From contig CANFTB010000018.1 in NCBI GenBank assembly GCA_947449735.1, positions 1 through 64,000 of the forward strand: DNA of 64,000 bases, written 5' to 3'. Below are positions 1-21,529 of the stretch, piece by piece. Numbering within the stretch: position 1 is the stretch's first letter; the number at the start of each line of letters is the position of its first letter. This DNA comes from Chthoniobacteraceae bacterium (lineage in GTDB: Bacteria > Verrucomicrobiota > Verrucomicrobiia > Chthoniobacterales > Chthoniobacteraceae). Position numbers and translations under genes: made by a program. The notes beneath the pieces were generated by a model. It ran no database searches. It had not been told where the DNA came from and was given only the letters and a program-made list of their open reading frames with translations.

Positions 1-2
1 AC

Positions 3-2552: not shown

Positions 2553-2820
2553 TCACAGGATGCTTGGAATGGTCGTTATGGCTGAGCGCAGGCGTTCAGC
2601 CTCGTGGTGCGTGTAGACTTTGTGAACCACCCCCGTGGTCTGCCCGACAAATTCCATGCGAAGCTCTTTGCTTACACCCGTATTTGCCAGCGCAGAAATG
2701 AATGTGTGCCCCAAGGAGTGGAACGTCAGCCCGCTCAAGTTGTGGCCCGACTCTCCCTTTGCTTTGCGGATTAGTTCGCCCCGGACTCCGGCGCGCGTTG
2801 AAAGATCTAAAAATGGCGGC
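2553..2820 (-). pseudogene. Truncated tyrosine recombinase (phage-type integrase), C-terminal part only
   Basis: The frame ending at 2553 encodes the C-terminal catalytic block of a tyrosine recombinase: LTFHSLGHTFISALANTG followed by KVYTHHEAERLRSA. Intact family members have H-x-L-R-H here; this copy reads H-S-L-G-H, so the second catalytic Arg is lost. The Tyr nucleophile (VYTHHE) is still present. Upstream the frame runs into the end of the sulfatase gene without any N-terminal recombinase domain, so the gene is cut off at about 2820. The residue change and truncation show a non-functional relic, probably marking an old integration end. Confidence 0.7.
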
Positions 2821-2823
2821 CTA

Positions 2824-4746: not shown

Positions 4747-4771
4747 ACTTGGGGGGTGCGGCGTACTTGGA

Positions 4772-7243
4772 TCAAGGTGTCTTTTTTGGCGACTGATGCG
4801 GGGGCGCCTGGCCCGAAGGAGGAAGTGTGGCGTTTGCTTCCTTGTAAAGGGTTGCAAGCTGGGTGGGCGTGACAAAGACGATATCCGAGCCCGCGTTCTT
4901 AACGATCTCATCCACGTCCTTCGGGTGGAACGTCCAACAGTGCACGAACCCATTCACAAATGCAGGGCGCTGCGTACCCGCTTGTTCGCGAATCTCCCCC
5001 ATAAATCCGCTTCCAAAGTTGCGCCAGGTTGTGACTGCACGAAAGACAGGCATCCCGTCTGGCAATTTGTAAGTGAGATTCGCGTAGCCGCTGTGCCCTG
5101 AATAACAACCCATGTCCGCAAAGAGACTGTGACAAAACGGAAGCGCCTTCGCGTACTCCGATAAAAAGGCATCCTCACCGTGGACTGTTCGAACGGTTCG
5201 CAGCCCGAGCGGCGGGAGTAATTTCGCCGTCCATTTCAGGAACCCTGCAAGGACTTCGGATTTGTTGGTGTAGGCCTCGCCCCAGTGATCGGGCTGCATG
5301 TAACTCGCGCCACTCACGTCGGCAATAAATTCGGTCGTTGGCGTCGCGCGTTCATAGTACCACTCGGCAATGGCAGGCTGCAGTTCCCGAATCGCCGGCC
5401 CTATCCCGAATGCCAGTGGGTATTTACCGTGGTTCGGACTCTCGAAATACTGCCGGAAAAACAGGTGCCACGCGTTTTGGTTGTCGCCGTCGGACATCGC
5501 CAGTGCCACGTAGATTTTGTCCTTCTCAAGAACCGGAGCGGGCGGCTGCTCCGGTTGCCTTAACTGCGCAACGCGCACGCCGCTCATGACGCCCGCATTG
5601 AGCATGTGGTCCGAACAGACGAGCCCCTTTCCATACCGGCTCGCCAACGCCACTCCCGGCGGCTCTCCAATGCCGACTCCCTCACCGGCGGCCGGAAAAC
5701 CAAAGATGGGTATGTTCACGGGCATCTGCGAGAACACGTTTGCGACCGCTCGTTTTTCCGCACCGCGATCAGCTCCCGGATTGACCTCGTCTTCCTGACC
5801 GCAGATCCAGACCATCGGCGCCTTCCACTGATAGGCGTACGCAAACTTTCCATTTTTTAGACGCTCAGGGTGCATGTAGTCGCACACATGCTGGTTCAGG
5901 CGATCCTTGTACGTTGCCCAAACCCACTCCAAGCCCTCGGCGTACGTCTTGAAACGGCCGCGCAAATCCATTTTAACGACCAACCCAAGCGACTTCGCCA
6001 GCTCCGGCGACGCCACAATCCAGTCCTCGCAGGCAGCCACATTAACCGCCAGCAAGTCCCCGCGGTAAAGGTCAGGATCCGCAATGACGGCTCCTTTCAC
6101 CTCGTCCTTGTATTTCGCAAACAGCGTCTTCCAGTTTGTTTCCTCGCGAAACCCGTCGATGTGCCCCTGCTTTTGATGCCATTCCAACCAAAAGCGGTCG
6201 GCTGCCGTATGCAGCAGCCAGATCTGCGGTTCTGTGCGACATGTCAACCCCTGGAGGCACGTCAATGCCACCCGCTCCTCGAGGCTCAGCTTGTTCAACG
6301 CGACGGCGGTAAGCTGGCGGGCGGGAGGATTCGATTTCGGCAAGAAGGATTCGCCCCAGGGTCTCGGTAGCTCTTGGGCCAGCAGACCATTGGGAAGCTG
6401 TCCCGGGAGCTTCATTTGGCCTAACCGGGCAAGTTTGGTGCTGAAGTCGTCCGCCGATATCTGCTGCTTCTCGCGCAAACACCAGAGGACTCCACGAACC
6501 AGGAGCTGGTTTGCCATGAACACGTCGGTTTCATCCGAGCCGCCGATCATGTGTCCGAGCCACACGTCACATGCACCGGAAAACGTCGGGCAACGATGCC
6601 TGATCAGCGCCGCGCTTGGCTGGGGCTTTTGTTCCGGGCCCACGCTGGTGAGAAGCGGCACCACCTCGTCGAGAGGATCCAAGGTCTCGACATCCAGCCA
6701 TTGGGTCCGGCCGTCTTTCCCTGAAAACCATTCCTTCGGAATGGCAAGGGGACTTTCCGGCACCTGCAGTGTCCACGTTTGCCCCGCTGGCGCCGACTTA
6801 AAGCCGCCTGTGGCGATCCCGTCTTGTTGATGGCGGAAATAACTCCGGTGCCCCAAGTCGCGCCATTTGCCGTCCACTCGCTCGCAGGGGTGGGTGAAGG
6901 GCACTCCAGTTAAAACAAAACTGCCCCCCGCGCGGTGGAATGCCTGAAGATTTGCAAACGCTGGCTCTGGAAAAGAGTTTCCGGTCGCAAGCACCAACAC
7001 CGAAGAATCAGCCTCCTCCAGAAAGGAAGGACTTTCCAGTGTTGCCGCATCGACAGCCCGTGCGTCGACGCCCGATTCCTGCAGTTTCGCCACGATCTTT
7101 TGCGCAGAGATGGCTACAGCTCCCCCCGTCCGAGGGAAATGACGCTCTCCGAATACAGAAACATGTCCCTTGCCTGCAGCCGCTACCGTTGAGAGCAGGA
7201 GAGGCGTTGCTAAAAACAAGAGTGCGCGGAGGGTAGGGACCAT
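4772..7243 (-). CDS. GxGYxYP-like secreted protein, putative glycoside hydrolase
   Basis: An 823-residue protein with an N-terminal signal peptide (about residues 1-23). The C-terminal half carries YVALAMSDGDNQNAWHLFF and, later, SGASYMQPDHW, which I match to the DGDN and GxGYxYP motifs of the GxGYxYP family of putative glycoside hydrolases. The second motif is divergent here (GASYMQP). The N-terminal 250 residues look like a Rossmann-like or glutamine-amidotransferase-like region (VLATGNSFP, GGSFVLTGVPF). It is the first gene of an operon with the sulfatase, which fits a joint role in polysaccharide breakdown. The family assignment is moderate; the gene itself is certain. Confidence 0.7.
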   Translation of the reverse strand: MVPTLRALLFLATPLLLSTVAAAGKGHVSVFGERHFPRTGGAVAISAQKIVAKLQESGVDARAVDAATLESPSFLEEADSSVLVLATGNSFPEPAFANLQAFHRAGGSFVLTGVPFTHPCERVDGKWRDLGHRSYFRHQQDGIATGGFKSAPAGQTWTLQVPESPLAIPKEWFSGKDGRTQWLDVETLDPLDEVVPLLTSVGPEQKPQPSAALIRHRCPTFSGACDVWLGHMIGGSDETDVFMANQLLVRGVLWCLREKQQISADDFSTKLARLGQMKLPGQLPNGLLAQELPRPWGESFLPKSNPPARQLTAVALNKLSLEERVALTCLQGLTCRTEPQIWLLHTAADRFWLEWHQKQGHIDGFREETNWKTLFAKYKDEVKGAVIADPDLYRGDLLAVNVAACEDWIVASPELAKSLGLVVKMDLRGRFKTYAEGLEWVWATYKDRLNQHVCDYMHPERLKNGKFAYAYQWKAPMVWICGQEDEVNPGADRGAEKRAVANVFSQMPVNIPIFGFPAAGEGVGIGEPPGVALASRYGKGLVCSDHMLNAGVMSGVRVAQLRQPEQPPAPVLEKDKIYVALAMSDGDNQNAWHLFFRQYFESPNHGKYPLAFGIGPAIRELQPAIAEWYYERATPTTEFIADVSGASYMQPDHWGEAYTNKSEVLAGFLKWTAKLLPPLGLRTVRTVHGEDAFLSEYAKALPFCHSLFADMGCYSGHSGYANLTYKLPDGMPVFRAVTTWRNFGSGFMGEIREQAGTQRPAFVNGFVHCWTFHPKDVDEIVKNAGSDIVFVTPTQLATLYKEANATLPPSGQAPPHQSPKKTP

Positions 7244-7274
7244 CTCTCGAACCTAACAGAAGCACCCTGCCGCG

Positions 7275-7300
7275 TCTTGTCGGGCGTTTGAGCGACAAGA
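7275..7300. promoter_or_regulatory. Perfect inverted repeat between divergent genes
   Basis: TCTTGTCG at 7275-7282 is matched by CGACAAGA at 7293-7300 with a 10-base spacer. It sits in the 150-base gap between the leftward GxGYxYP/sulfatase operon and the rightward histidine kinase, a typical place for an operator. No T-run follows on either strand, so an operator is more likely than a terminator. No regulator is assigned. Confidence 0.35.
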
Positions 7301-7393
7301 CAGCGGCGCACAAAAGCAGGTTAATCTGTTTAAGACCTGCGAGAGCAGATACGCCTCTGGAGTTGTCGCCAGATTAACCCGCCCCATCAGGAC

Positions 7394-9130
7394 ATGCCTT
7401 CGCTTTTCTTCCCTCAGCTCCGAAGCGCCTGCGTGTCGCTGCTTTTACTGGTCGCAGGTCGGAGCGCATCGGCTCGGTCTCCCCAGGACGTGAACACCAA
7501 GCCGCTCGGGGTTGATCTCGTGTCCCTTGAAGTGAATGACACCCCTCTTGCTGCGAACGCCTGGAGTGCAGCAACACGGCCCAGCGCCGGGCCCCTGAGC
7601 TTCTCCTCTGTGCGTTCGATGCGTGTTCATTTCAAAGAATTCTCTCCCGAAAACGGCTCGTCCCCGAAACTCCAATACTTCCTTTCAGGCTATGACACCC
7701 AATGGCACGCCCTCAGAGCCCACGCCCAACTCACGGTTCGTTTTTTAGACAAAGACGGAGCCATCATCGGTACCGAGGATCTAAACGCGAACGGGGACAG
7801 CGCGGGGTGGATGGGAACGATTGCCAACTCAGAGTTTTCAGCGCGCTCAGCCACACTCAGCGCACCCCCGCGATGCAACCGGATTCAACTCCTGATCATT
7901 TCAAGTGTGCCTCAAATGATCGGCCAGTACGCGCTTCGCGACATCACGCTCTCGATCGCACACTCGGAAGGGCGCGGGAGGTCGACGGCCGTACTATCGA
8001 CCGACGAGGGGGTGGAGATGAACAATGCGCTTGGCGGTCCCCTTCAATGGGCAAGAAGCGGCACCCGCGCCCAGCTAGCCCAGGTGGTAACACTGCCCGA
8101 TGGAAAGCACGCGCTTGCACTCTTGGATAACGCGTCGACAACGTTTGGCGCATGGATTCTAAAACCGCCGCATTGTCCGGAAGTGCGTGAAGGCGAAGAA
8201 ATCGTTCTCAACTGGAGAGAATGCTTCAGTTTGGGCCGTGGCGGAGACGGGTTGGCTTTCTATGAAAACCTTCCTCCGGGAAACTACAATCTGCTGGTCG
8301 CGGGACAAACCATGGAAGGCCGCAGCATCGCAGAAAGCAGCGTTCTTGCGTTCAGTATTCCCCCGCCATTTTGGGAGCGCCCCCTGTTTTGGATCGTTGC
8401 AGGAGTCGCCTCCACCGGGTGCGCCTTCGGCCTCACAAAGTTCACCGCGAGACGTCGGATGGAACGCCATTTTGCTGAGCTCGAGCGCCAGCATCTTGTG
8501 GAAAGAGAACGCTCTCGAATTGCGCGTGACATCCACGACGAACTGGGGGCCAGCCTTGCCGCTATCGCGTTGATCAGCACCCGCGCCCTGGAAAACCTCT
8601 CGGTCCATCCTGAGACCGCCGAACCATTAAATGAGATCTCAAAGCGCGCCAAACAAACTGCCCGTCAACTCGCCGAAATCGTCTGGGCCGTGAACCCTGC
8701 CCGCGATTCCGTGGAGAATCTCGTCGATTTTGTCTGCCAGTTTGCACAAGAACATCTCGAACTCGCAAACATCCGGTTTCGCGCTCAAATCCCCAGCGAA
8801 CTTCCCGAGCTCGCGCTTTCCTCCAACGCAAGGCACGAGGCTTTTCTTGCGGCAAAAGAACTCGTGCACAACGCCGTACGGCACGGCAAACCAACGCTGG
8901 TTGTGTTAATAATCCAGTGTTCTCCCGGATGGCTATCCGTCGAGATCGAAGACAATGGCTGCGGTTTTATCCCTGTCCCAGACAACATGCACGGCGGACT
9001 CGCCAACGTCGCTGAACGCATGAAAAAAGTGGGTGGCGAGTTTGGGGCACACTCCGTTCCATGTCAGGGAACTCGGATGCAACTGCGGATCCCCCTTAGC
9101 ACTGCCCATGGTTCAAAACAGCATGTCTGA
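7394..9130 (+). CDS. Membrane sensor histidine kinase (NarX/LytS-like, HisKA_3)
   Basis: A 578-residue kinase. Residues 1-28 look like a signal peptide, followed by an extracytoplasmic sensor region and one membrane helix near residues 329-350 (FWIVAGVASTGCAFGLTKF). The H-box ERSRIARDIHDELGASLAAI places the phosphorylated His near residue 381, as in the HisKA_3 class. The ATPase domain has ELVHNAVRHGK, EDNGCGF and GGLANVAERMKKVGG. The stop TGA overlaps the ATG of a response-regulator frame that is cut short after 36 codons. A decayed second copy of this gene's 3' end lies at 20186-20356 next to an intact response regulator, so the natural partner is probably encoded 11 kb away. Confidence 0.9.
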   Translation: MPSLFFPQLRSACVSLLLLVAGRSASARSPQDVNTKPLGVDLVSLEVNDTPLAANAWSAATRPSAGPLSFSSVRSMRVHFKEFSPENGSSPKLQYFLSGYDTQWHALRAHAQLTVRFLDKDGAIIGTEDLNANGDSAGWMGTIANSEFSARSATLSAPPRCNRIQLLIISSVPQMIGQYALRDITLSIAHSEGRGRSTAVLSTDEGVEMNNALGGPLQWARSGTRAQLAQVVTLPDGKHALALLDNASTTFGAWILKPPHCPEVREGEEIVLNWRECFSLGRGGDGLAFYENLPPGNYNLLVAGQTMEGRSIAESSVLAFSIPPPFWERPLFWIVAGVASTGCAFGLTKFTARRRMERHFAELERQHLVERERSRIARDIHDELGASLAAIALISTRALENLSVHPETAEPLNEISKRAKQTARQLAEIVWAVNPARDSVENLVDFVCQFAQEHLELANIRFRAQIPSELPELALSSNARHEAFLAAKELVHNAVRHGKPTLVVLIIQCSPGWLSVEIEDNGCGFIPVPDNMHGGLANVAERMKKVGGEFGAHSVPCQGTRMQLRIPLSTAHGSKQHV

Positions 9131-9245
9131 GATGGGTGCCTCTATCCTCGTGGCGATTGTGGAAGATGATGCGGCGCTCCGAAAGAACCTGCATGCCATC
9201 GGTTCCTCGTTCTTTCTTACGCGGGCACTTTAGCGCGCCCCGCGA
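8958..9245 (+). repeat. Left member of a diverged direct repeat flanking an 11-kb cassette
   Basis: The last 170 bases of the kinase gene and the first 100 bases of the truncated regulator are repeated, diverged but collinear, at 20186-20465. The final 17 bases, TTTAGCGCGCCCCGCGA at 9229-9245, recur exactly at 21203-21219, downstream of the intact regulator. The two copies therefore share ancestry across kinase tail, regulator and downstream flank, with the regulator body missing here. Confidence 0.75.
9123..9233 (+). pseudogene. Truncated response regulator (5' end only)
   Basis: ATG 9123 overlaps the stop of the histidine kinase and reads ILVAIVEDDAALRKNLHAI, the first strand and acidic pocket of a REC domain. 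It then runs into TAG at 9231-9233 after 36 residues. The sequence is closely similar to the start of the intact response regulator at 20349 (ILVAIVEDDAELRRNLHAI). The last bases before the break, GCACTTT, align with GCACTTTT in that gene, and the following 17 bases match sequence downstream of it. The body of the gene appears to have been deleted. Confidence 0.8.
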
Positions 9246-9362
9246 TCATTCCGAGCGCGCGGGCCGCGGAAATCGGGGCGAAAAGGCAGATTCAGCATTC
9301 GGTTTATTTTTTCTAAGATGGGGACGCTCTGTTGGTTTTTTGTCATGTAGACGCGTTTTTAT

Positions 9363-10184
9363 ATGGCAACAAACCGAAACCGCTCCTCCTCGCTCCTTGC
9401 CGAGCGCAAGGCGCCCTCCAAATACAGTGTGCCCAATCTGGACCGCGCGCTGAGTATTTTGGAGATATTGAGTGCTGCGCCGGCCGGCCTGACGCTCAGC
9501 GAGCTTGCCGCCACTCTTGAGATCCCGACAAACAGTGTCTTTCGGATCAGCCGCACTTTGGAAGAGCGGGGGTATTTGGAGCGAAACGAGGGTTCCAAAA
9601 AATTCCACCTCACCCAGAAGCTGTTGCGGCTGAGCTGCGCCCCCGCTGCTGGAGAACGGAGCCTGACCGAGTCGGCGCTGGAAACGATGCGCAGCCTTCG
9701 GGACGCGACGATGGAGACCGTCCTGCTGGGGACCATCTCGGGCGCGGAAGGAATCGTGCTCGAACAGGTTCCGGGCCGTCATCCATTCCGGTTTTGCGTG
9801 GACGTGGGGGTCCGTTTTGAGCTGCACACGGCAGCCCCTGGGAAGTCGATGCTCGCAGCCCTGCCTCCCGCGGAGGCGGGCGCGCTGATGGACCGGATGC
9901 CTTTCACACGCTTCAACGCGCGCACGATCACAGAACGCGCCGCGTTCGAGGCCGAGTTGCAGCGCACCCGGGCCTGCGGCTTCGGTGTGGATGAGGGAGA
10001 GGAACGCGAGGGGGCGCACTGTGTTGGGAGCGTGATTCTCGACCGGCAAGGCGCTCCGGTGGGAGGGATCTGGATCACCGGCCCGTCCTCTCGGCTGCCC
10101 GCGTCGAGGTTTGCTTTCGTGGGCAGTCTGGTCCGGGAGGCCGCCCTTTCGGTCTCTGCAAAGCTCGGCTATTTTCCTAGCTGA
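9363..10184 (+). CDS. IclR-family transcriptional regulator
   Basis: A 273-residue regulator with an N-terminal winged helix-turn-helix at about residues 24-85 (LDRALSILEILSAAPAGLTL, then TNSVFRISRTLEERGYLER). The IclR effector-binding domain follows, including the APGKSMLAALP stretch. IclR proteins commonly control catabolic operons and bind a small metabolite. It is the first gene of the cassette that continues with a PSD1 cytochrome, DUF1501, beta-propeller, SDR and ABC importer on the same strand, so it is the obvious local regulator. The short 22-base gap to the next gene suggests cotranscription. Confidence 0.92.
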   Translation: MATNRNRSSSLLAERKAPSKYSVPNLDRALSILEILSAAPAGLTLSELAATLEIPTNSVFRISRTLEERGYLERNEGSKKFHLTQKLLRLSCAPAAGERSLTESALETMRSLRDATMETVLLGTISGAEGIVLEQVPGRHPFRFCVDVGVRFELHTAAPGKSMLAALPPAEAGALMDRMPFTRFNARTITERAAFEAELQRTRACGFGVDEGEEREGAHCVGSVILDRQGAPVGGIWITGPSSRLPASRFAFVGSLVREAALSVSAKLGYFPS

Positions 10185-10206
10185 ACCGTTTGTGAGCCTG
10201 CATTTT

Positions 10207-13134
10207 ATGAACATAAAGGTTCCGTCCTCCGTCCTCGGTTTTTGCTCCGGACTGCTCCTGCTTTCGAGCGGCTCCGTTTTCGCAGCGCAGGGCACTCCGG
10301 AAGCGGAACAGTTTTTCAAGGAGCAGGTGCACCCCCTTTTGAAGGCGCACTGCATCAAGTGTCACGGCGGGGAAAAGACGAAGGGTGGTTTTGTGCTCAC
10401 CTCGCGAGAGAGCTTGCTGAAGGGAGGCGAAAGCGGCGCGGCCATCGATTCCGCCGCCCCGTCGAAGAGCCGGTTGCTGGAAATGCTCAGCTACCGGGAT
10501 GCGGACCACGAGATGCCGCCCGCTGGAAAGAGGCCCCAGGCGGAAATTGATATCATCCAGAAATGGCTTGAGATGGGCGCGCCCTACGACCCGGCCCTGG
10601 AGAGCGCCCCTGTCAAGACGGCGCACGCCCAAGCACCCGGAGTCACGGAGGACCGCGCCAACTGGTGGGCCTACAAGCCCGTGCGCGCGGATGCCCCCCC
10701 GGCGGCGGCCGACCCAGCGTGGCGGAAGAACCCGGTGGACGCGTTTCTCGCAAAGCAACACGCCCAGAGGAACCTCCGCCCGAACCCGCCCGCTTCGAAG
10801 GAGCAGCTTGTCCGCCGGGCCTATTACGACGTTACAGGCCTTCCCCCATCGCCCGAGGAGGTCGCAAGCTTTGTGGCAGACGCCTCGCCCGACGCCTGGC
10901 CGCGGCTTGTCGACGCGCTCCTCGCCAAGCCCCAGTACGGGGAGAAGTGGGCCCGCCACTGGATGGACGTGATCCGCTACGCCGAGTCGGAGGGTTTTGA
11001 GCGCGACAACGAGAAGCCCCACATCTGGCGGTACCGCGACTACCTGATCGAGGCCTTCAACTCGGACCTGCCCTACAACCGTTTCATTCTCGAGCAGCTT
11101 GCAGGGGATGAGTTGGAGCAGCCCACGCTACAGTCGCTCACCGCGACCGGCTTCCTCCGCCTGATGCAGTGGGACGACGAACCCTCCGACCGGCTCCAGG
11201 CCAAATACGACCTGCTGGCCGACAACGTACTGGTCACCAGCGAAGCGTTCCTCGGCATGACGATGGGCTGTGCGCGCTGCCACGATCACAAAAAGGATCC
11301 GATCTCGCAGAAGGATTATTACAGTTTCATGGCGTTCTTTCACGGCCTGAAAGACTACGGCGCCACGCGTAACAACCCGCGCCTGTGGGCGCCCGAGGTG
11401 GACCGCGCCCGGCTCAACCTCGAGCAGAACAAACGGCTCGCCAGTCTGGACGCGGAATACCAGAAGAACCGGGAGCTCCTGATGGATTGGCATGCCAAGA
11501 CCGGCACCGCGTCTAGGAAGGGCGAGGACGCACCCCCACTCGTTGCACCCCGGGGAGGGGAGGAGAACGCCTGGCAGCACACCACCAAGGCGCCTGCGTC
11601 CAACTGGCGAGCGGAGAGCTTCGCCGCCAAGGGTTGGAGCACGGCCAACACCACAGACGCCGGGGCAGGTGCCGAGGTTTGGATGCGCGCCAAGTTCGGG
11701 CTGGCAGAGATCCCGGCGGATTTCTATCTGGACCTTGAATACCAGAACGACACGGAGGTTTTCCTCAACGGGTCCCCGATCCTTCAGGGACATAACCTCC
11801 CCAAGGGACGCCGCGCCATAGAGCTGGCTCCAAACTTCAAGCGCCTGCTCCATACGGGCGCAAACTTCCTGGCCGTCCGAACCGTTGCCGCGGGCGCCGG
11901 TGCGCTGCCCAACGTAAGCCTATACACTGGGCTCTCGCCCGAGGGACGGGCAGAAAAGCTGCTGCGCGGTCCGAAAAGGTCCGAGCAAGGGGACCTCAAC
12001 CGCCTCGCGGGCGGGGACCTTTTGGAAAAGATCAAAAAAGCCAACCCCTCGTGGCTGGCGGAAGCAGGCCGGTTGGTCGGCATTCCAATCAGTGCGGCTT
12101 CGGAAGACGGCGCCACCCCCGCGCCCCTCGCCGTCCACCGCCGCGGCAGCCCTCAGAATTTGGGAGAGCTTGTGGAACCTGCGTACCCGGTGATTCTCAC
12201 CAAGGGCGGCCCTGCGCTTCTCTCGAGCGCACCAGTCGGCGGCGGGGCATCGTCCGGGAGACGTCTGGCACTGGCCAACTGGCTGACGCAACCGGACAAC
12301 CCGCTGGTGAGCCGCGTGGCAGTCAACCGGATCTGGCAGCATCATTTCGGCCGGGGGCTTGTGCCCACGCCAAACGACTTTGGGCGTCTGGGCGAGCTGC
12401 CGACGCATCCCGAACTGCTGGACTATCTGGCGCGCACCTTTATCGAAAAAGGGTGGAGCTTCAAAGCGATGCACCGGCTGCTGTTGACCTCGCAGGCGTA
12501 CCAGATGAGTTCTGCCGGAACACAGGACTCCCTTGAAAAGGACCCGGAGAACTCTCTTTTCTGGCGGTTTCCGATGCGCAGACTCACGGCGGAGGAGCTA
12601 CGGGACTCGATTCTTTCGATGTCTGGAGTGTTGCTGCCGCAGATGTTTGGTCCGCCGGTGCATCCCCCGCTGCCGCGTGCTGTTTTGGAAACCCAGTCTG
12701 TTCCGGGCCGCAACTGGCCGGTGGAAAACGAGGAGGACACGACGCGCAGGAGCATTTACGTCCATGTGAAACGCACCCTTTCGGTGCCCTTGCTCGCCGA
12801 CCACGACCAAGCCCCCACCGACACGCCCTGCGCTGTGCGGTTTGTGAGCACGGTTTCGACGCAGGCCCTTGGGCTGCTCAACTCGGACTTCATGGAGAAC
12901 CAGTCCAGGTTGTTCGCGGAGCGCTTGCGCAGGGAAGCGGGCGACGACGTCAAAGCACAGATCCGCCGCGGCCTCCAACTCGTACTGCAACGCCCCCCCC
13001 GGGAAAGCGAAATCGCCCTTTGCCTCAAGACGTGCGAGAGGCTCAAAAGCGAGTTGAACATCTCCGACATGACCGCCCTCCAGCGTTTTGCCCTGATCGC
13101 TCTCAACTTGAACGAGTTCATCTATCTGGACTAA
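10207..13134 (+). CDS. PSD1-type protein: cytochrome c-like domain with DUF1549 and DUF1553
   Basis: A 975-residue secreted protein. The start at 10207 gives a clean signal peptide (ends SVFAAQG); an earlier in-frame ATG at 10111 lies inside the IclR gene. Residues 49-53 are CIKCH, a haem c-binding site in a Planctomycete-type cytochrome domain. The DUF1549 region follows (WWAYKPV, then FLAKQHAQRNLRPNPPASKE, YAESEGFERDNEKP), then an insert of beta-sandwich character, then DUF1553 (LANWLTQPDNPLVSRVAVNR, LLTSQAYQMSS). The family is almost always paired with a DUF1501 protein, as here 15 bases downstream. The reaction is unknown; extracytoplasmic redox chemistry on carbohydrate is an inference from context. 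Confidence 0.92.
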   Translation: MNIKVPSSVLGFCSGLLLLSSGSVFAAQGTPEAEQFFKEQVHPLLKAHCIKCHGGEKTKGGFVLTSRESLLKGGESGAAIDSAAPSKSRLLEMLSYRDADHEMPPAGKRPQAEIDIIQKWLEMGAPYDPALESAPVKTAHAQAPGVTEDRANWWAYKPVRADAPPAAADPAWRKNPVDAFLAKQHAQRNLRPNPPASKEQLVRRAYYDVTGLPPSPEEVASFVADASPDAWPRLVDALLAKPQYGEKWARHWMDVIRYAESEGFERDNEKPHIWRYRDYLIEAFNSDLPYNRFILEQLAGDELEQPTLQSLTATGFLRLMQWDDEPSDRLQAKYDLLADNVLVTSEAFLGMTMGCARCHDHKKDPISQKDYYSFMAFFHGLKDYGATRNNPRLWAPEVDRARLNLEQNKRLASLDAEYQKNRELLMDWHAKTGTASRKGEDAPPLVAPRGGEENAWQHTTKAPASNWRAESFAAKGWSTANTTDAGAGAEVWMRAKFGLAEIPADFYLDLEYQNDTEVFLNGSPILQGHNLPKGRRAIELAPNFKRLLHTGANFLAVRTVAAGAGALPNVSLYTGLSPEGRAEKLLRGPKRSEQGDLNRLAGGDLLEKIKKANPSWLAEAGRLVGIPISAASEDGATPAPLAVHRRGSPQNLGELVEPAYPVILTKGGPALLSSAPVGGGASSGRRLALANWLTQPDNPLVSRVAVNRIWQHHFGRGLVPTPNDFGRLGELPTHPELLDYLARTFIEKGWSFKAMHRLLLTSQAYQMSSAGTQDSLEKDPENSLFWRFPMRRLTAEELRDSILSMSGVLLPQMFGPPVHPPLPRAVLETQSVPGRNWPVENEEDTTRRSIYVHVKRTLSVPLLADHDQAPTDTPCAVRFVSTVSTQALGLLNSDFMENQSRLFAERLRREAGDDVKAQIRRGLQLVLQRPPRESEIALCLKTCERLKSELNISDMTALQRFALIALNLNEFIYLD

Positions 13135-13149
13135 TCCAAAGGCCCGCTC

Positions 13150-14601
13150 ATGCGCACTTCTTCCCACTCCAACTTCTGCGGCAACGTCCGGCGCCGGGAA
13201 TTCCTTACCACCGTAGGCGGCGGGTTCACGCACATGGCGCTTTGCGGGCTTCTGGCAAAGGACGGCTTCTTCGGCACGCAAGCGCAGGCGGCGGCGTCCC
13301 CAGCCCCGGCTGGGGTGAGACTTCCGGGCAAGGCAAAGAGCGTGATCTTTTTGTTCATGTACGGAGGCCCGAGCCACATCGACACTTTTGACTACAAACC
13401 CGCGATGCTCGGGATGGATGGCAAGACCATCCAAATCCAAACCAAGGGCCGCGGCGGCTCCAAGAACGAGGGCCGGATTGTGGAGCCCAAATGGAAGTTC
13501 AAACAGTACGGCCAGTCCGGAAAATGGGTTTCCGAACTCTTTCCCAATGTCGCTCAATGCGTGGATGATCTTGCGTTCATCCATAGCATGACGGCCGAGT
13601 CCCCAATCCACGGTTCGGCGATGCTCAAAATGAACACAGGATCCATCATCGGGGGCAAGCCGGCCCTTGGTTCTTGGATCAACTACGGCATGGGCAGTCT
13701 CAACCAAAACCTGCCCGGCTTCGTGGTGATGCTCGACAAAAAGGGCGGCCCCATTTCCGGCGCAAAAAACTGGTCCTCTGGCTTCATGCCGGCCACCCAC
13801 CAGGGCACGGTGTTCCGGGCCGCGGGTGCTCCCATTCTGGATTTAAGTCCTCGCGAGGGTGTTAGCACTGGGGAACAGAGACTCCTGTTGAATTCGCTCA
13901 ACGAACTCAACCAGTCCCACCTGAGCGGGCGCAGCGACAACACCAACCTTGCCGCCCGCATCGAAAGCTACGAGCTCGCCTACCGGATGCAGGCGGCCGC
14001 CCCCGACACCATCGATCTCTCCAAGGAGTCCGCAGAGACCCTCGCCCTCTACGGAATGGACAACCCACGCACCGAGGACTTCGGGCGCAAGTGTCTCCTC
14101 GCCCGCCGATTGGTGGAAAGCGGGGTGCGCTTCGTCCAGATCTACTCCGGGGGCGCGCACACCGACGACAACTGGGACGCGCACGGGGATCTGGTCAAAA
14201 ATCACGAGTTTCATGCTGGCAACACGGACAAGGCGGTGGCGGGTCTTCTTAAGGATCTCAAACGGCGGGGTCTCCTAGATGAAACCCTGGTGGTGTGGGG
14301 CGGCGAGTTCGGCCGCCAGCCCACCGCGGAATACGCCGCCGGCACGGGGCGCGACCACAACTCGGCCGGCTTCACCATGTGGATGGCCGGGGGAGGAATC
14401 AAGGGGGGCGTCAGCTACGGAGAAACCGACGAACTCGGCAACCGCGCGGTCGCCAACCGATGCGAGGTCAAAGACCTGCACGCCACAATCCTGCACCTGC
14501 TGGGCGTGGACCCAAACCACCTCTCCTTCTTCTATGGCGGCCTCGACCAAAAGCTCGTGGGCGTCGAGGGTGCGGAACCCATTAGTGCCATCATGGCTTG
14601 A
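13150..14601 (+). CDS. DUF1501 family protein with Tat signal
   Basis: A 483-residue protein with a twin-arginine leader (RRREFLTTVGGG near residues 14-25), so it is probably exported folded. The body shows the DUF1501 layout, a sulfatase/alkaline-phosphatase-like fold: FLFMYGGPSHIDTFD near the start, RRLVESGVRFVQIYSGGAHT in the middle and VVWGGEFGRQP followed by GRDHN in the C-terminal part, likely metal-ligand regions. It starts 15 bases after the PSD1 gene. DUF1501-PSD1 pairs are a hallmark of PVC bacteria, but the biochemical activity of the pair is not established. Confidence 0.93.
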   Translation: MRTSSHSNFCGNVRRREFLTTVGGGFTHMALCGLLAKDGFFGTQAQAAASPAPAGVRLPGKAKSVIFLFMYGGPSHIDTFDYKPAMLGMDGKTIQIQTKGRGGSKNEGRIVEPKWKFKQYGQSGKWVSELFPNVAQCVDDLAFIHSMTAESPIHGSAMLKMNTGSIIGGKPALGSWINYGMGSLNQNLPGFVVMLDKKGGPISGAKNWSSGFMPATHQGTVFRAAGAPILDLSPREGVSTGEQRLLLNSLNELNQSHLSGRSDNTNLAARIESYELAYRMQAAAPDTIDLSKESAETLALYGMDNPRTEDFGRKCLLARRLVESGVRFVQIYSGGAHTDDNWDAHGDLVKNHEFHAGNTDKAVAGLLKDLKRRGLLDETLVVWGGEFGRQPTAEYAAGTGRDHNSAGFTMWMAGGGIKGGVSYGETDELGNRAVANRCEVKDLHATILHLLGVDPNHLSFFYGGLDQKLVGVEGAEPISAIMA

Positions 14602-14662
14602 TACTTTCGATCTAATCGGTCGCGCTGAATTGCATACCCCTCTTCCTAACCCCCAAAACCCA

Positions 14663-15664
14663 ATGAAAAACAACCTGATGCACTGCCATTCCCTCCTTCG
14701 TCATCGTCTTTCCTCCCTGCTGCTCGGCGCCCTCGCCTCGACGTTCCTTCTGGACGTTCGCTCCCTTCATGCCGAGCAAATGGGCACTCAGCACCGCCTG
14801 CTTGTGGCCAACACGGGGCGCGTCGCCATCGTCGCTCCGGACGGCACGCTCGAGCGCGATGTCAAAAGTGCCGGGCTCCACGACGCCTCGCTTCTGCCCA
14901 ATGGAAACCTTTTGTTCCAGTCCAGCTGGACCAAGGTGACGGAGCTCAACCCCGAAGGCAAAGTGGTATGGGAATACGATTCCGCGACCTCAAACGGAAA
15001 CGCTGGAGTACCTATGGAGGTACATGCCTGCCAAAGGCTGGAAAACGGGCTGACCATGATTTCCGAATCCGGTGTGGGCCGCATCATCGAGGTCGATCGC
15101 GACGGCAAGCTGGTGCACGAAATCAAGCTGGTGCGGGACCGCCCGAACAAACACAGCGACACAAGGCTCGTCCGGCGCACCCCGGCAGGCACCTATCTGG
15201 TGGCACACGAGGCGGACGGCAAGGTGAGGGAGTACGACAGGGACGGAAAAGTTGTGTGGGAGTTTGCGGTGCCGCTCTTTGGTAAGAAGCCGGCTGGAGG
15301 CCACGGGCCTGAGGCTTTTGGGAACCATCTTTTCAGCGTGGTTAGGATTGCAAACGGCAACACCCTGATCGGCACGGGAAACGGCCACAGCGTCCTCGAG
15401 GTCAATCCGAAGGGTGAAATCGTCTGGAAACTCGAGCAGGACGACCTCCCCGGCATCAAGCTCGCCTGGGTGACGCGCGTGGAACGCCTGCCCAACGGCA
15501 ACACCCGCCTGGGCAACTGCCACGCCGGACCTAACATGCCGCTGAGTATTGAGGTAGATTCTTCCAAGAAAGTGGTCTGGTCCTACTCGGATTTCGAGCG
15601 CTTCGGAAACTCGACCGTGGCCGTGGATGTCGTTGACGGCGTGGGGACCGCTGCGGGAAAGTAG
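14663..15664 (+). CDS. Secreted PQQ-like beta-propeller protein
   Basis: A 333-residue protein. The start at 14663 gives a signal peptide (ends SLHAEQ); longer in-frame versions would overlap the DUF1501 gene. It contains repeated blade motifs of the type G-x-(V/I)-V-W-(E/K) (GKVVWEYDS, GKVVWEFAV, GEIVWKLEQ, KKVVWSYSD) and NGN turns (LLPNGNLLF, IANGNTLIG, LPNGNTRLG), typical of PQQ/WD40-like propellers. No catalytic site was recognised. It lies between DUF1501 and an SDR in the cassette and may bind or oxidise a sugar extracytoplasmically; that is inference. Confidence 0.8.
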   Translation: MKNNLMHCHSLLRHRLSSLLLGALASTFLLDVRSLHAEQMGTQHRLLVANTGRVAIVAPDGTLERDVKSAGLHDASLLPNGNLLFQSSWTKVTELNPEGKVVWEYDSATSNGNAGVPMEVHACQRLENGLTMISESGVGRIIEVDRDGKLVHEIKLVRDRPNKHSDTRLVRRTPAGTYLVAHEADGKVREYDRDGKVVWEFAVPLFGKKPAGGHGPEAFGNHLFSVVRIANGNTLIGTGNGHSVLEVNPKGEIVWKLEQDDLPGIKLAWVTRVERLPNGNTRLGNCHAGPNMPLSIEVDSSKKVVWSYSDFERFGNSTVAVDVVDGVGTAAGK

Positions 15665-15733
15665 TCTCCTGCGCGGCCGTGCATCTGCAATTGATCGGCC
15701 CACTTTCCACACCTCAACTCCTGCTCTCTTTCC

Positions 15734-16501
15734 ATGTTTGATCCCTCTTCTTTCTCTCTGAAGGGCCGCGTAGCCCTTGTCACCGGCAGCTCTACAGGCC
15801 TTGGAAAAGCGATGGTCGCCGGCCTGGGCAAAGCAGGCGCCAAAGTCGCCCTGAATTATCAAAACAATGCCGCACGCGCCGAATCCGCATTTGCCGAACT
15901 GGAGGCGGCCGGCATTGACGGCATGCTGGTCAGAGGCGACGTGACCGACGAGGCCGAGGTGGGCAGGATGGTGGCGGAGATTGCAGGCAAGCTTGGACCG
16001 GTGGACATCGTCGTGTTCAACGCCACTCCCGCCCAACCGCAGAAGCCGATTGAGGAATACGACTGGGAGTTTTACCAGCAGATGCTGGACTTCTTCATCA
16101 AGAGTCCGTTTCTGCTCACGCGCGCCTGCCTTCCGCATATGAAGTCCCAAAAGTGGGGGCGCATCATCAACGTAGGCTCAGAGGTTGTGGCCCGCGGCGT
16201 CGGCAACTTCACCGCCTATGTCGCCGCCAAGGGCGGACAGAACGGCTTCAACCGTAGTCTGGCCTCCGAGCTCGCCCCTTGGGGCATCACCGTCAACATG
16301 CTCTCCCCCGGCTGGATTCCGGTCGAGAGGCACTTGGATGATCCGGAGGAACAAAAGGCGGCCTACCGCAGTCTGATCCCGCTCGACCGCTGGGGCCTTC
16401 CGGACGACGTCGCCGGCGCCACAGTCTTCCTAGCGAGCGAGGCCGCTGCATTCATCACCGGTCAAAATCTTCACGTCAACGGCGGCATGACCACCCACTA
16501 G
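15734..16501 (+). CDS. Short-chain dehydrogenase/reductase (FabG-like SDR)
   Basis: A 255-residue classical SDR. The nucleotide-binding motif is [11 protein letters not shown] near the N-terminus, the structural NVGSE motif holds the catalytic Ser region, and the active-site YVAAK (Y-x3-K) follows. The C-terminus [14 protein letters not shown] is standard. It is cytoplasmic and NAD(P)H-dependent. In this cassette, upstream of a ribose-type importer, oxidation or reduction of an imported sugar is more likely than fatty-acid synthesis. No substrate can be named. Confidence 0.92.
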
Positions 16502-16514
16502 TCTTCTCCCCACC

Positions 16515-17564
16515 ATGAAATTACACTCCCTCCTCCGTAACGCAGCCCTGCTGGGCTTGCTCTCCTTGAGCCTTGGCGCATGCAACAAACCAGCCTCCAC
16601 CGAGGGAGGCACGTCTTCACCGTCGGGCGGTGAGAAGTCGAAAAAAATTGCCTTCGTCACAAACGGAGTGGCCTCCTTTTGGACGATCGCAGCTGCTGGG
16701 GTCAAGGCTGCCGCCCGCGACCTTAAAATTGATGCCCAAACACTCATGCCGGCAGAAGGCATCAGCGACCAGAAACGCATGGTCGAGGACCTGTTGACCC
16801 GGGGGATCGATGGCATCGCGCTCAGTCCGATTGATCCGGCCAATCAGACGGAACTCATCAATATGGCCGCCAAAAAAGCCAAGGTGATCACCCACGATTC
16901 GGATGCGCCGAAAAGCGAGAGGCTTCTCTACATCGGGATGGACAACTACAAGGCGGGGCGGATGTGCGGAGAACTGGTGCGGGAGGCGATGCCCGCGGGC
17001 GGAACGGTCATGATTTTCATCGGACGTCTGGAACAAGACAACGCCAAGCGGCGCAGACAAGGCGTGATCGACGCCCTCCTTGGACGCCCGGAGGATAGCA
17101 GCCGTTTTGACGAGACCTCCGCCGTTCTCGAAGGCAAAGGCTTCAAAATCTTGGGCACCCTGACAGACCAGTTCGACCGGGCCAAGGGCAAGGCGAACGC
17201 CGAAGATGCACTCGCCAAGTATCCAGATCTCGGCTGCATGGTTGGACTGTTTGCCTATAATCCTCCGCTGATCCTTGAGGCGCTCTCTCAGTCAAACAAG
17301 CTGGGTAAAGTCAAACTGGTCGCCTTCGACGAGGACGACGCCACCCTCGACGGCATTGAAAAGGGCAGCGTGTTTGGAACCGTTGTGCAGGATCCCTACA
17401 TGTACGGCTACAAGTCGGTGGAGGTGCTGTCCGGGCTTTTGAGTGGCAAGCCCGAGGCAGTGGGTGCGGACAAGTTCCTCGACATTCCGGCGCGTAAAAT
17501 TCTCAAAGAAAACGTCGTCGCGTTTCGCACGGAGCTCAAGACGCGGCTCGGGGCGGCGCAGTAG
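16515..17564 (+). CDS. Sugar ABC transporter substrate-binding lipoprotein (RbsB-like)
   Basis: A 349-residue periplasmic-binding protein with a lipoprotein signal (SLSLGAC, lipobox Cys near residue 23). The mature part is a type I PBP of the ribose/xylose/galactose class: [31 protein letters not shown] and [19 protein letters not shown] are characteristic. It starts 13 bases after the SDR and is followed by an ATPase and a permease, completing an importer. The ligand is probably a monosaccharide or polyol. Confidence 0.92.
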
Positions 17565-17678
17565 TCGCTCTCGATTGCCGCGGTGCGTGGTGGAGTCCTA
17601 TTCTGTTTGAGGGCTCCACCCGGTTCCGTTCGGAGGCAGACACCTGAAAGGGCTCGAGCCTTAAAACTTTTCGATCAC

Positions 17679-19193
17679 ATGGCATCGCCCCTTTTGGAAG
17701 CAAGGCAGATCAGCAAGTCTTTTGCGGGCGTTCGCGCGCTCAAAGGCGTAAGCCTCAGCGTTTATCCGGGCGAGGTATTGGCCGTCGTCGGTGAGAACGG
17801 CGCTGGCAAGAGCACGCTGATGAAGATCCTTGCGGGAGTGCAGAGGCCTGACTCCGGTGAACTGGTTGTGGATGGGGCCGTTCGCACGATCGGTTCGGTG
17901 CAGGAGGCGCTTCGTTTCGGAATCGCTTTAATCCACCAGGAACTCAACCTCGCCGAGACCCTGGATGTGGGGGCCAATATTTTTCTGGGACGCGAACCTC
18001 ACCGTTGCGGGTGGGTGGATGCCGTCCGTATTGAGACGGAGGCGCGCATCGTATTGGAACGTGTTGGGCTTAGCGTGGAGCCGGGTGCCTTGGTGGGCGA
18101 TCTAACAATCGGCCAGCAACAGCTTGTGGAGATCGCCAAGGCTCTTTCTGTGAACGCCCGTGTGCTCATCATGGACGAGCCCACGTCCAGCTTGTCCGAC
18201 CATGAAGCCAAGGTGCTTCTGAGACTCATTCGGGAACTGCGCAGCAAAGGGACCGGTATCGTTTACATCTCCCACCGCCTCGGCGAGGTTCAGGGCCTTG
18301 CTGACCGGGTGGAAGTCCTAAGGGACGGTGATAACGCAGGACGACTCTTGCGGGAGGAAATTTCACACGGCGCCATGGTCCAACTGATGGTCGGCCGCGC
18401 ACTGGCACAGTTTTATCCGCACGAGCCCCATGAAACGGGTGAGGTCGTTTTGGATGTGGTTGGACTTCGGACCCGCGCCAACCCAGGCAAGGTCGTTGAT
18501 TTTCAACTGCGTGCGGGTGAGATCGTGGGATTGGCAGGACTGGTGGGAGCCGGTAGGAGCGAATTGCTCGATGCTCTCTTCGGTGTGGTGCCCGCCCTGC
18601 AGGGAACGGTGCGCGTGTCTGGGGAGTTGGTAGAGCTTCGCTCCCCGCGGATGGCGATGGATGCTGGGATCGCGCTCGTGCCGGAAGACCGCAAGCATCA
18701 GGGGCTCTTTTTGGAAATGGGCGTTCGCGAAAACCTGAGCATCGCATCGCTGCATCGGGAGCAGACGGGTGGGTTTTTGAACCGAGCCAAGGAAAGGGCA
18801 CTCTGCGAAGAGATGATGCCCGCGCTGCGCATCAAGGCGGCCGGAGTTGAGCAACCTGTGCAGTTTTTGTCGGGCGGCAATCAGCAGAAGGTCGTTATTG
18901 GAAAGTGGCTTGCGACACGGCCGGGAGTGTTTTTACTGGATGAGCCGACGCGCGGCGTGGACATTGGTGCAAAGCAGGAGATCTACCGGTTGATGGAGGA
19001 ACTCGCGGCCAACGGGGCCGCCGTCTTGTTTGTGTCGAGCGATCTGGAGGAGATCTTGGGCATGTCCGACCGTGTTTTGGTGCTGCACGAAGGCCGCCTG
19101 AGCGGAGAACTGCTCAGAAAGGATCTCAGCGAGGAAGCCGTGATGCGGCTAGCCACGGCAGCGCACACAGAAGTCGCGGCCAGCTCCATTTAA
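17679..19193 (+). CDS. Sugar ABC transporter ATP-binding protein with two nucleotide-binding domains (RbsA-like)
   Basis: A 504-residue duplicated ATPase. The first domain has Walker [11 protein letters not shown] and [14 protein letters not shown]. The second has the degenerate first-site [16 protein letters not shown] and an intact signature [19 protein letters not shown]. Both domains have Walker B ([20 protein letters not shown]). This arrangement is that of ribose/xylose-class importers. The start at 17679 ([15 protein letters not shown]) is preferred over an upstream in-frame ATG at 17583 because homologues begin here. The permease begins one base after its stop. Confidence 0.93.
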
Positions 19194-19194
19194 T

Positions 19195-20184
19195 ATGAAG
19201 AAAAATCTCGGAATTTTCGGTTTGCTTGTCGTGGTGTGTGTTGTAACAGCGCTTCTTTCAGACAGTTTTCTGAGCGCGTACAATGTGGAGAACGTGCTGC
19301 GCCGGTCGGCGCTTTTTGGAATTTTAAGCATTGGCGTTGGGTTCGTCATCATCACGGGCGGCATCGACCTTTCGCTCGGGTCCGTGGTTTGTCTGGTGGG
19401 CTGTGCGCTGCCCTGGCTGCTCACGGTGCAGCACTGGCCTCTACCGCTCGCTCTGCTGGCTGTCGCTGCGGTTTCTTTGGGAATCGGCCTCTTTCACGGC
19501 CTGCTGATCACCAAGCTCCGCATCCAGCCCTTTATTGTGACCCTGTGCGGCCTGCTGCTCTACCGCGGGGTTGCGCGGGGGTTCACAGCCGACCAAACCG
19601 TCGGCTTTGGAACCGAGTTTAAAACACTGCGCCTGTTGTCCACCGGAAAGGTCCCGTTCCTTCCCGGCTTCGATCTTCCCGCACCGCTTTTTTTCCTGGC
19701 CCTAGTCGCCATCCTTGCCGCGCTCTTTCTCAACCGGACCATTTTCGGGCGGTACCTGCTGGCCCTCGGCCGCAACCCGCAGGCTGCCACCTACAGCGGG
19801 ATTCCTACCCAACGCATGACGGTTCTTGCGTATGTCATCAGCTCGGGGCTCGCAGGCCTGGGTGGCGTGCTGTTCGTTCTGGATGTGAATTCGGCACAAC
19901 CCGTCGACTTCGGCAACTTTTACGAACTTTACGCCATTGCCGCCGCTGTGTTGGGTGGCTGCAGCCTGCGCGGAGGTGAAGGCTCAATCGTCGGGATCCT
20001 CATCGGGGCGACTCTCATGCAGGTGCTGCGAAATACGATCACTCTGGTAACCACCCGCAACAATGTGGAGTTTGCAATTATCGGCGCGGTGATCCTTGTG
20101 GGCGTCGTCGCGGACGAGCTTGCCCGCCGTGTCGCGGCGCGGCGCCGCGCGGCGCGCGTTCTGCTAAGTTCCAGTGCAGGCTGA
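19195..20184 (+). CDS. Sugar ABC transporter permease (RbsC-like)
   Basis: A 329-residue membrane protein with about eight to ten hydrophobic helices and the family signatures GILSIGVGFVIITGGIDLSLGS and YAIAAAVLGGCSLRGGEGSI (given in part), typical of RbsC/XylH permeases. It is the last gene of the IclR cassette. The stop at 20182-20184 is followed at once (from 20186) by a decayed copy of the histidine-kinase 3' end, so the cassette boundary is sharp. The C-terminus is Arg/Ala-rich (RRVAARRRAARV). Confidence 0.93.
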   Translation: MKKNLGIFGLLVVVCVVTALLSDSFLSAYNVENVLRRSALFGILSIGVGFVIITGGIDLSLGSVVCLVGCALPWLLTVQHWPLPLALLAVAAVSLGIGLFHGLLITKLRIQPFIVTLCGLLLYRGVARGFTADQTVGFGTEFKTLRLLSTGKVPFLPGFDLPAPLFFLALVAILAALFLNRTIFGRYLLALGRNPQAATYSGIPTQRMTVLAYVISSGLAGLGGVLFVLDVNSAQPVDFGNFYELYAIAAAVLGGCSLRGGEGSIVGILIGATLMQVLRNTITLVTTRNNVEFAIIGAVILVGVVADELARRVAARRRAARVLLSSSAG

Positions 20185-20185
20185 G

Positions 20186-20356
20186 CTGCGGTTTTATCCC
20201 CTCCCACGACAATACGTACGGCGGACTCGCAAGCTTGGCTGAATGCATGAGAAAGTGGGTGGCGGGCTTGCGGTACGCTACGTTCGGCTTCACGGAGTTC
20301 GGATGCAGTTGCGGGTTTCCCTCAGCACCACCCATGGTTTGACACAGCATGTTTGA
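20186..20356 (+). pseudogene. Decayed 3' end of a sensor histidine kinase
   Basis: From GCTGCGGTTTTATCCC to the TGA overlapping the next ATG this stretch is collinear with the last 170 bases of the intact kinase gene (8958-9130), including TACGGCGGACTCGC, ATGAGAAAGTGGGTGGCG and CACCCATGGTTTGACACAGC. Small indels have shifted the frame and created stops, so no protein can be made. It begins directly after the permease stop codon, marking a recombination junction. Confidence 0.75.
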
Positions 20357-20465
20357 GATTCCTTCTTCTATACTAGTAGCGATTGTGGAGGATGATGCGG
20401 AACTCCGAAGAAATCTGCATGCCATCGTTTCCTCCGCCCCGGATCTCTGTTGCGTGGGCACTTTT
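20186..20465 (+). repeat. Right member of the diverged direct repeat flanking the 11-kb cassette
   Basis: Collinear with 8958-9230, covering the kinase tail and the first 110 bases of the response regulator. A further exact 17-base match (TTTAGCGCGCCCCGCGA, 21203-21219 against 9229-9245) lies downstream of the intact regulator. Divergence is substantial, so the duplication is not recent. Confidence 0.75.
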
Positions 20466-21029
20466 GCTTCGGCAGAAGAAGCCTGGGATTTGCTTCCCGG
20501 AAAGTCGCCTGCAGTTGTGTTGATGGATATCAATCTCCCCAAGGCAAATGGCATTGCCTGTGTCGCCCGCCTTTCCGGCGTGTTACCCCACACCCATTTT
20601 TTAATGCTCACAGTATACAATGATTCCGAGGCGATTTTTGATTCACTGGCGGCGGGTGCGAACGGGTATTTAAGGAAGCCGATGGAGCCCGCTGAGCTGT
20701 TGGAAGCCATCCGCGACGTGCACCGGGGCGGAGCACCAATGAGTAGCAGCATCGCGCGGCGGGTGATTCAGGCGTTCCGAAAACCTTCAGACCCGCCGGT
20801 GGCAGACAACTCCAGCCGCGTCGCCGTGCTTGAAAAACTGGCGCCTCGCGAGCGGGAAGTCCTCGAACTTCTTGCGAAGGGGTGTTTACAGAAAGAGATC
20901 GCAGATCAATTGGGGATCAGCTTCTCCACGGTCCGAACGCTCACCGGCCGGATATACGAGAAACTTCATGTCCATTCGCGGGGACAGGCTGTTGCCAAAT
21001 ATATCGGCGCCGCAGCGCCCTCGCCATGA
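20349..21029 (+). CDS. NarL/LuxR-type response regulator
   Basis: A 226-residue regulator. The REC domain has the acidic pair VEDD near residues 13-16 and the phosphoacceptor Asp near 60 (VLMDINLPKANG). The C-terminal LuxR HTH occupies roughly residues 160-215 (LAPREREVLELLAKGCLQKE, then STVRTLTGRIYEKLHVHSR). NarL-type regulators pair with HisKA_3 kinases such as the one at 7394-9130. The immediately upstream kinase is a relic, and the intact kinase has a truncated regulator beside it, so these two survivors are probably partners. Start ATG 20349 overlaps the relic kinase's stop. Confidence 0.92.
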   Translation: MFEIPSSILVAIVEDDAELRRNLHAIVSSAPDLCCVGTFASAEEAWDLLPGKSPAVVLMDINLPKANGIACVARLSGVLPHTHFLMLTVYNDSEAIFDSLAAGANGYLRKPMEPAELLEAIRDVHRGGAPMSSSIARRVIQAFRKPSDPPVADNSSRVAVLEKLAPREREVLELLAKGCLQKEIADQLGISFSTVRTLTGRIYEKLHVHSRGQAVAKYIGAAAPSP

Positions 21030-21529
21030 GCTTGCGGCGAGTGTGCGTTTAAAAGGGGGGAGTTTGATTTGTTGAGAGGCAACGATCCAGTTCGGGTCTC
21101 TGAGGCCCCAAGGCAGAAAAACCGTTTTGCCAATGAGCTGTGAGGCCCAAGGGCTGGTTGAAAGTGGTTTTCGGCTGTGATCTTATCCACTGCTTTGAGG
21201 CTTTTAGCGCGCCCCGCGACACAGGACGGACACGGGTAAACGGAGCCGGTGAGATCGTAATCTTGAGAGAGAGTTTATGGGGGAAAAGAACCATCCTCAG
21301 ATCAGTGTTCGCCCACGCGAATGTGCTCATTTAATATACGGTTTTAAGAAGCCATACATTATATCGGCCAGCGTGATCTAACCGCTTTCGTTCAGGGCCT
21401 AACAAGGCTGTGAGAGGACTCGGTAAGAGGGGTGAAGCGCCACTCGCTACTTCATCAATGGCAAACGGCTGTCGATGCTGGAGGGCTCCAGAATCTCAGC
21501 TTGCACTAGTTCGAGAGCACCTTCCGCTG
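21030..21529. other. 500-base non-coding interval
   Basis: No convincing gene, RNA or terminator was seen between the rightward response regulator and the leftward metallopeptidase. It contains the 17-base match to 9229-9245 at 21203-21219. The first part is probably the ancestral downstream flank of the regulator. Confidence 0.4.

Follow-up and report, generated by a model that had tools for sequence, protein, structure and literature searches.

Probable splitting of a two-component gene pair by a sugar-use cassette in a Chthoniobacteraceae bacterium

Introduction

How does a sensor kinase gene come to lie 11 kb from a response regulator gene that is its immediate neighbor in related genomes? 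The locus that raises this question lies in a 64,000-nucleotide stretch of DNA from a Chthoniobacteraceae bacterium (contig CANFTB010000018.1 of assembly GCA_947449735.1; “the window” below means this whole stretch), in which an intact kinase gene (K1) and an intact regulator gene (R2) of a two-component system stand on either side of a gene cassette that runs from an IclR-family regulator to the permease of a sugar ATP-binding cassette (ABC) transporter. An earlier note, made from the sequence alone, had proposed that a circular molecule integrated, or that the pair was duplicated in tandem, and that the two copies then suffered opposite losses. We find that the map is probably the product of one event, in which a single ancestral pair would have been interrupted at its junction by the cassette of about 11 kb, leaving 277 bp of that junction at both ends. 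Among the open-licence papers that our searches listed, we found no account of this split pair or of the dispersed repeat at its left edge.

The window is part of contig C18 of genome G000 (4,183,214 bases in 67 contigs, 89.6% complete). The regulator was searched for in 57 genomes, G000 among them, and had a match at E 1e-45 or better in 25; its identity reached 81-92% in five other genomes (G009, G003, G005, G006, and G002), and it was in these five of the 57 that the kinase/regulator locus was read.

Results

The junction of the pair is present at both ends of the cassette

Nucleotide alignment of 8958-9234 with 20185-20467 (Table 1) gave 76.8% identity over 285 columns (E 6e-55) and a score of 208 bits, against no more than 25.6 bits when the right segment was shuffled 100 times in two-base blocks, so that the collinear shared stretch marked out in the earlier note holds at the nucleotide level, far beyond shuffled sequence. 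The duplicated junction spans 277 bp. Open reading frames (ORFs) and Pfam also bore out the rest of the map as it had been described, with an intact kinase and a regulator cut after 36 codons (R1) on the left and a decayed kinase tail and an intact regulator on the right, where the second copy opens at 20185, the base that follows the permease stop (TGA, 20182-20184).

The R1 stop falls inside the dispersed repeat. At the left join, regulator sequence resembling GGGCACTTTTGC of the right copy abuts TTTAGC of the repeat, and the two nearly match over a short stretch (TTT-GC) that would lend itself to illegitimate joining. No exact match between the two junction copies exceeds 17 bases; the k-mers usually used in assembly are longer than this, and a mis-join is thus an unlikely source of the map.

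Table 1. Coordinates of the split pair, the cassette, and neighboring features in the window
Feature	Position	Strand	Remarks
GxGYxYP putative glycoside hydrolase	4772..7243	-	Pfam; left neighbor, collinear with L057
Sensor kinase K1	7394..9130	+	Intact, 578 amino acids, HisKA_3 + HATPase_c; Pfam
Left junction copy	8958..9234	+	Kinase tail + regulator start; nucleotide alignment
Regulator remnant R1	9123..9233	+	36 codons, ATG at 9123 to TAG at 9231-9233; 7-base deletion
Full dispersed-repeat copy	9229..9306	+	Left cassette edge; nhmmer 1.9e-14; covariance model 70.4 bits (this copy was among the sequences from which the model was built)
IclR-family regulator	9363..10184	+	Pfam; first cassette gene
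PSCyt1-PSCyt2-PSD1 protein	10111..13134	+	Pfam; true start probably near 10208
DUF1501 protein	13150..14601	+	Pfam
ORF with propeller-like C-terminal part (Mala_s_1-like / ASST-like; PF22701)	14279..15664	+	True start probably downstream of 14601
SDR oxidoreductase	15734..16501	+	Pfam, NCBIfam
Ribose-type periplasmic binding protein	16515..17564	+	Pfam, NCBIfam
Sugar ABC transporter ATPase, two ABC domains	17583..19193	+	Pfam, NCBIfam
Sugar ABC transporter permease	19195..20184	+	Pfam, NCBIfam; last cassette gene
Right junction copy	20185..20467	+	Decayed kinase tail (1-base deletion) + regulator start
Response regulator R2	20349..21029	+	Intact, 226 amino acids, Response_reg + GerE (receiver + LuxR-type helix-turn-helix, HTH); Pfam
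Exact 17-base repeat start	21203..21219	+	Rest absent or beyond recognition

The pair is uninterrupted in relatives

In G005 (on a 95-kb contig), G009, G003, G006, and G002, kinase and regulator are direct neighbors with no cassette between them. G009 and G003 carry the same locus sequence (L057 and L058, 100% identical) despite an rpoB identity of 79%, and since they share this contig the five genomes were counted as four independent loci. Positions 3945-9209 of the window are collinear with 1-5262 of the congener contig L057 (88%, blastn), and 20185-21031 match 5011-5858 of the same contig, the two matches overlapping there by only about 250 bp. On these alignments, the window is the relatives' locus with about 11 kb inserted and the junction doubled. 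The earlier note had suggested looking among relatives for an uninterrupted pair without the cassette; it was found at all four loci, and this supports the proposal that one split kinase/regulator pair flanks the cassette.

The surviving kinase and regulator resemble an unsplit pair

K1 is longer than its counterparts (578 amino acids vs 573 in the relatives' contigs L057 and L059) because its native stop was lost. The strings that we take to be its H, N, and G boxes are present at residues 375, 489, 520, and 534, and R2 keeps the receiver acid pair, Asp60 (presumably the acceptor), Lys110 (which we take to be the conserved Lys), and the HTH. The choice of partner in such systems is set by the dimerization helix of the kinase and the first helix of the receiver, and both are almost unchanged here. 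Pairwise ratios of nonsynonymous to synonymous substitution rates (dN/dS) were 0.20 against G009 and 0.16 against G005 for the kinase, with 0.19 between the unsplit G009 and G005, and 0.10 and 0.09 for the regulator, with 0.12 between the unsplit pair, so that purifying selection on K1 and R2 appears similar to that on unsplit pairs. This selection, the intact catalytic residues, and the nearly unchanged partner helices argue that K1 and R2, 11 kb apart in the window and adjacent in the relatives, probably still work together as one pair.

R2 starts 164 bp downstream of the permease stop on the same strand, and a terminator scan placed one weak terminator-like site there (20175-20190), such sites being about as frequent as in shuffles (19 vs 16.7). 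Joint transcription of R2 with the cassette is possible. Control of the cassette by K1 and R2 is speculation, which the flanks of the congeners' cassettes (below) do not support. The kinase-tail remnant retains a 37-codon frame (20243-20356) that overlaps the start of R2, and translational coupling could persist.

A family search of G000 at thresholds of E 1e-20 and 1e-10 returned only one further kinase/regulator pair (contig C32, regulator 43% identical), and many paralogous pairs were therefore rejected as a source of the copies.

The cassette occurs at other addresses in congeners

The cassette has the content given in the earlier note (IclR, PSD1, DUF1501, SDR, and a sugar ABC importer), together with a propeller-like ORF (14279-15664) that was not named there. 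Positions 9334-20155 are present at nearly full length in G003 (84%) and G001 (76%), and pieces occur in G004, G010, G005, and G009; these matches indicate a conserved unit that congeners carry at other addresses. By ORF lists, its neighbors differ among G003, G001, and G004. The cassettes of G005 and G009 share a neighbor, a spermidine-synthase-like gene (named by reading rather than by a family search), of which G000 has a 70% identical version on contig C48, away from the cassette.

A long direct repeat of the flanks is seen only in the window: none was found at L092, L093, L094, or L098, and L101 gave one 35-base match (E 0.05). No kinase-regulator pair was seen by eye in the cassette flanks (2.4-5 kb per side) of G003, G001, G004, G005, and G009, one side only for G009, in ORF lists and the best eight tblastx matches per flank, most of them low-identity noise; the short flanks of G010 had no tblastx match. 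A genome of another genus, G013, carries a different kinase-regulator pair, with a propeller-type kinase, next to the cassette on the opposite strand (L101, 1908-5894), which may be coincidence. Pfam identified no transposase among the cassette genes, and the duplication, at 277 bp, is not the short target duplication that would go with one; nor did Pfam and NCBIfam identify any replication, mobilization, or recombinase family there.

A dispersed repeat lies at the left edge

The earlier note had taken an exact 17-base sequence, present at both 9229-9245 and 21203-21219, as proof that the left regulator was once whole. That argument fails, since a dispersed repeat, about 72-78 bp long and found across the genus, begins with these 17 bases, and two nearby pieces of it are no proof of common descent. 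The 17-mer occurs at four exact places in G000 and at 20 with no more than two mismatches, vs 3 for a reversed control. A covariance model of the repeat had matches in 11 of 12 genomes of the genus, at least 25 of them in G000, and in none of seven others; 150 candidates were scored per genome, so that the repeat counts are lower bounds. The left end of the repeat is sharp, with some sequence further left common to 10 of 59 copies. The piece at 21203-21219 escapes both nhmmer (E 0.1) and the covariance search of the window.

The repeat is directional. Among 150 listed sites, 49 of the 54 neighboring pairs less than 15 kb apart share their orientation (two of the 49 are second copies, G003 C74 and G009 C115 holding the same sequence), and the five exceptions all lie in G001 and G007. 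No link between repeat orientation and GC skew was seen by eye at 12 loci and in the window. At several loci GDSL lipase, esterase, or DHDPS-like genes have repeats on either side, as do PSCyt/PSD genes with DUF1501 or DUF1552 partners (Pfam), one of three bracketed clusters tested being PSCyt3/PSD2-5 with DUF1552 (Pfam).

Several identities for the repeat were considered. A structured RNA is unsupported: the repeat had no Rfam match at the gathering threshold in the window, L132, L133, or L135, the fold of its alignment gave no pairs, and there was no covariation beyond shuffles among 61 distinct copies, so that the covarying hairpin of integron cassettes was not found either. Integron attC sites carry a GTT crossover box; the majority consensus of the repeat has no GTT on either strand, yet GTT or AAC occurs somewhere in 59 of 68 copies, with no fixed box seen. 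A target-duplicating insertion is likewise unsupported, the observed mean being reached in 36 of 200 permutations (59 of the 68 copies used), as is half of an insertion sequence: those genes lying between repeats that were tested proved to be GDSL lipase, esterase, DHDPS-like, PSCyt/PSD, and DUF1501/DUF1552 genes. No empty site was found for repeat cluster C2, the one cluster tried, whose flanks were matched by differing contigs of the relatives among the matches listed. In the one array searched for an integrase, a phage-integrase-like gene (G009 C115; L135, 2877-4061; Pfam E 1.4e-6) lies about 1 kb from a four-repeat cluster.

Elsewhere in the window, 63790-63884 on the minus strand match the bacterial small SRP RNA (Rfam RF00169).

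Discussion

How the split arose

The history that we favor would begin with one ancestral kinase-regulator pair, interrupted at its junction by the IclR-to-permease cassette of about 11 kb. The insertion would leave each end with 277 bp from the junction, comprising the tail of the kinase and the start of the regulator; the complete kinase and 36 codons of the regulator would then stay on the left, and a kinase tail and the complete regulator on the right. Because both truncations follow from a single insertion that duplicates the junction, the opposite losses after full duplication that had been proposed earlier are not needed. The route may have been illegitimate recombination or template switching, or a single crossover of a circle that carried the 277-bp segment. 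Kinase and regulator would still exchange phosphate across the 11 kb, and R2 would be at least partly transcribed together with the cassette. The split pair documents a genome rearrangement clearly, though one of a fairly ordinary kind.

Two alternatives differ from this history in route only. The whole kinase-regulator unit may have been duplicated in tandem, with the cassette then replacing the inner part (R1 losing its 3′ end and the second kinase its 5′ part) at a time when redundancy made the insertion harmless; this would give the same final map and would fit copies that are old, both decayed, and grouped together in a tree (bootstrap 71), but it requires at least two events where one would do, no trace remains of the duplication's own joint, and no tandem pair occurs in the five orthologous loci read (four on contigs of just 6.5-10.8 kb), so that we regard it as possible at less than even weight. 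Rather unlikely is a Campbell-type integration, in which the cassette would have arrived on a circle together with a 277-bp piece of kinase and regulator, and the circle would have recombined with the pair on the chromosome. It predicts exactly both truncations without later losses, and the target segment, directly repeated on either side of the insert, and the differing addresses of the cassette in congeners suit it; against it stand a cassette free of replication, mobilization, and recombinase families, the absence of such a direct repeat from the flanks compared around the other cassettes (the weak match at L101 apart), and the fact that it leaves unexplained how a circle would have acquired a mid-kinase fragment.

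The dispersed repeat suggests another route, in which direct copies of it would bracket 9229-21219 and the whole unit, regulator included, would have been exchanged as one. The two pieces have the same orientation, as do most neighboring pairs among the sites listed, and several pairs bracket catabolic genes; but the right piece is just 17 bp long, the repeat was not found in the cassette loci fetched from congeners, there is no target duplication around the repeats, and the 277-bp duplication would be left unexplained, all of which makes this exchange improbable. The wider idea, that an undescribed gene-shuffling system of this genus uses the same-oriented repeats as its sites of exchange to shift bracketed catabolic clusters whole, and that it moved 9229-21219 with the regulator as a passenger and possibly a controller, we consider a very long shot. 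Hardly credible is that two unrelated two-component systems flank the cassette by chance, or that the map was made in assembly: G000 is a draft of 67 contigs, but the nucleotide homology is far beyond chance, its longest exact match is short, and the C32 pair is the only other one in the genome to pass the thresholds.

The left and right copies are 77.9% identical, vs 85.9% for left and G009 and 79.9% for right and G009; five sites are common to both copies against all three relatives, the left copy has 18 sites of its own and the right copy 30, and a tree joins the two. The likeliest, if weakly supported, order would be separation from the relatives, doubling of the junction, and decay of both remnants.

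Several points weigh against the favored history. The bootstrap value of 71 is weak, trees of the halves are unresolved, and the kinase-tail tree does not join the copies. As the copies differ by 22% and the left copy differs from G009 by 14%, the duplication is old and a foreign copy is possible in principle. The sequence to the right of R2 is not collinear with the relatives, and the right edge is therefore not established as the ancestral flank. The locus is 85-88% identical to G003/G009 and G005, above rpoB (79-82%), and so may itself have passed between species, a transfer within the genus; against G006 and G002 its identity (72-76%) is not above that of rpoB (77% and 74%). The relatives' loci all come from metagenome-assembled genomes, and the identical contigs of G009 and G003, seen also at the repeat loci L135 and L136, are with their diverged rpoB a sign of cross-binning. 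Finally, the dN/dS values are pairwise and so not specific to the window's own lineage.

What the split locus offers

An insertion at this junction would mean that both joints are preserved of an event that turned a neighboring sensor-regulator pair into separated partners, which makes it possible to ask if they stay specific for each other and if the regulator gains new transcriptional control. The PSD1/DUF1501/sugar-importer cassette also changes its address between related species, and following up the locus brought to light a dispersed repeat, directional in its arrangement, for which none of the four sources searched gave an Rfam match. If the repeats did move the unit, a two-component regulator would have become the passenger, and possibly the controller, of a mobile sugar-use cassette.

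Relation to known systems

In its parts the pair resembles the HisKA_3/NarL-type systems (UhpB/UhpA- and NarX/NarL-like), having a kinase with HisKA_3 and HATPase_c and a regulator with a receiver and a LuxR-type HTH, adjacent in congeners; unlike them, its genes are separated by 11 kb here, and all NCBIfam scores listed for K1 and R2 stay well short of their cut-offs. In a Campbell-type single crossover, the insert is flanked by direct copies of the target segment, and direct copies stand at both ends here too; a circular donor would be hypothetical. The PSCyt/PSD groups of freshwater Verrucomicrobia place a PSCyt2 gene beside a fixed partner family, and a role in carbohydrate use was suggested (PMC5615132). 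The cassette likewise has a PSCyt2 gene and a partner; that work, in the part available to us, covers domains and neighbors rather than a cassette moving into a split two-component locus. SgmT and DigR of Myxococcus xanthus are described, in the portion of the report that we consulted, as an orphan kinase and an orphan regulator that work as a pair (PMC3509222), which makes them like the separated K1 and R2; what distinguishes the window from that account is that the joint of the split can still be made out in the duplicated remnants on either side.

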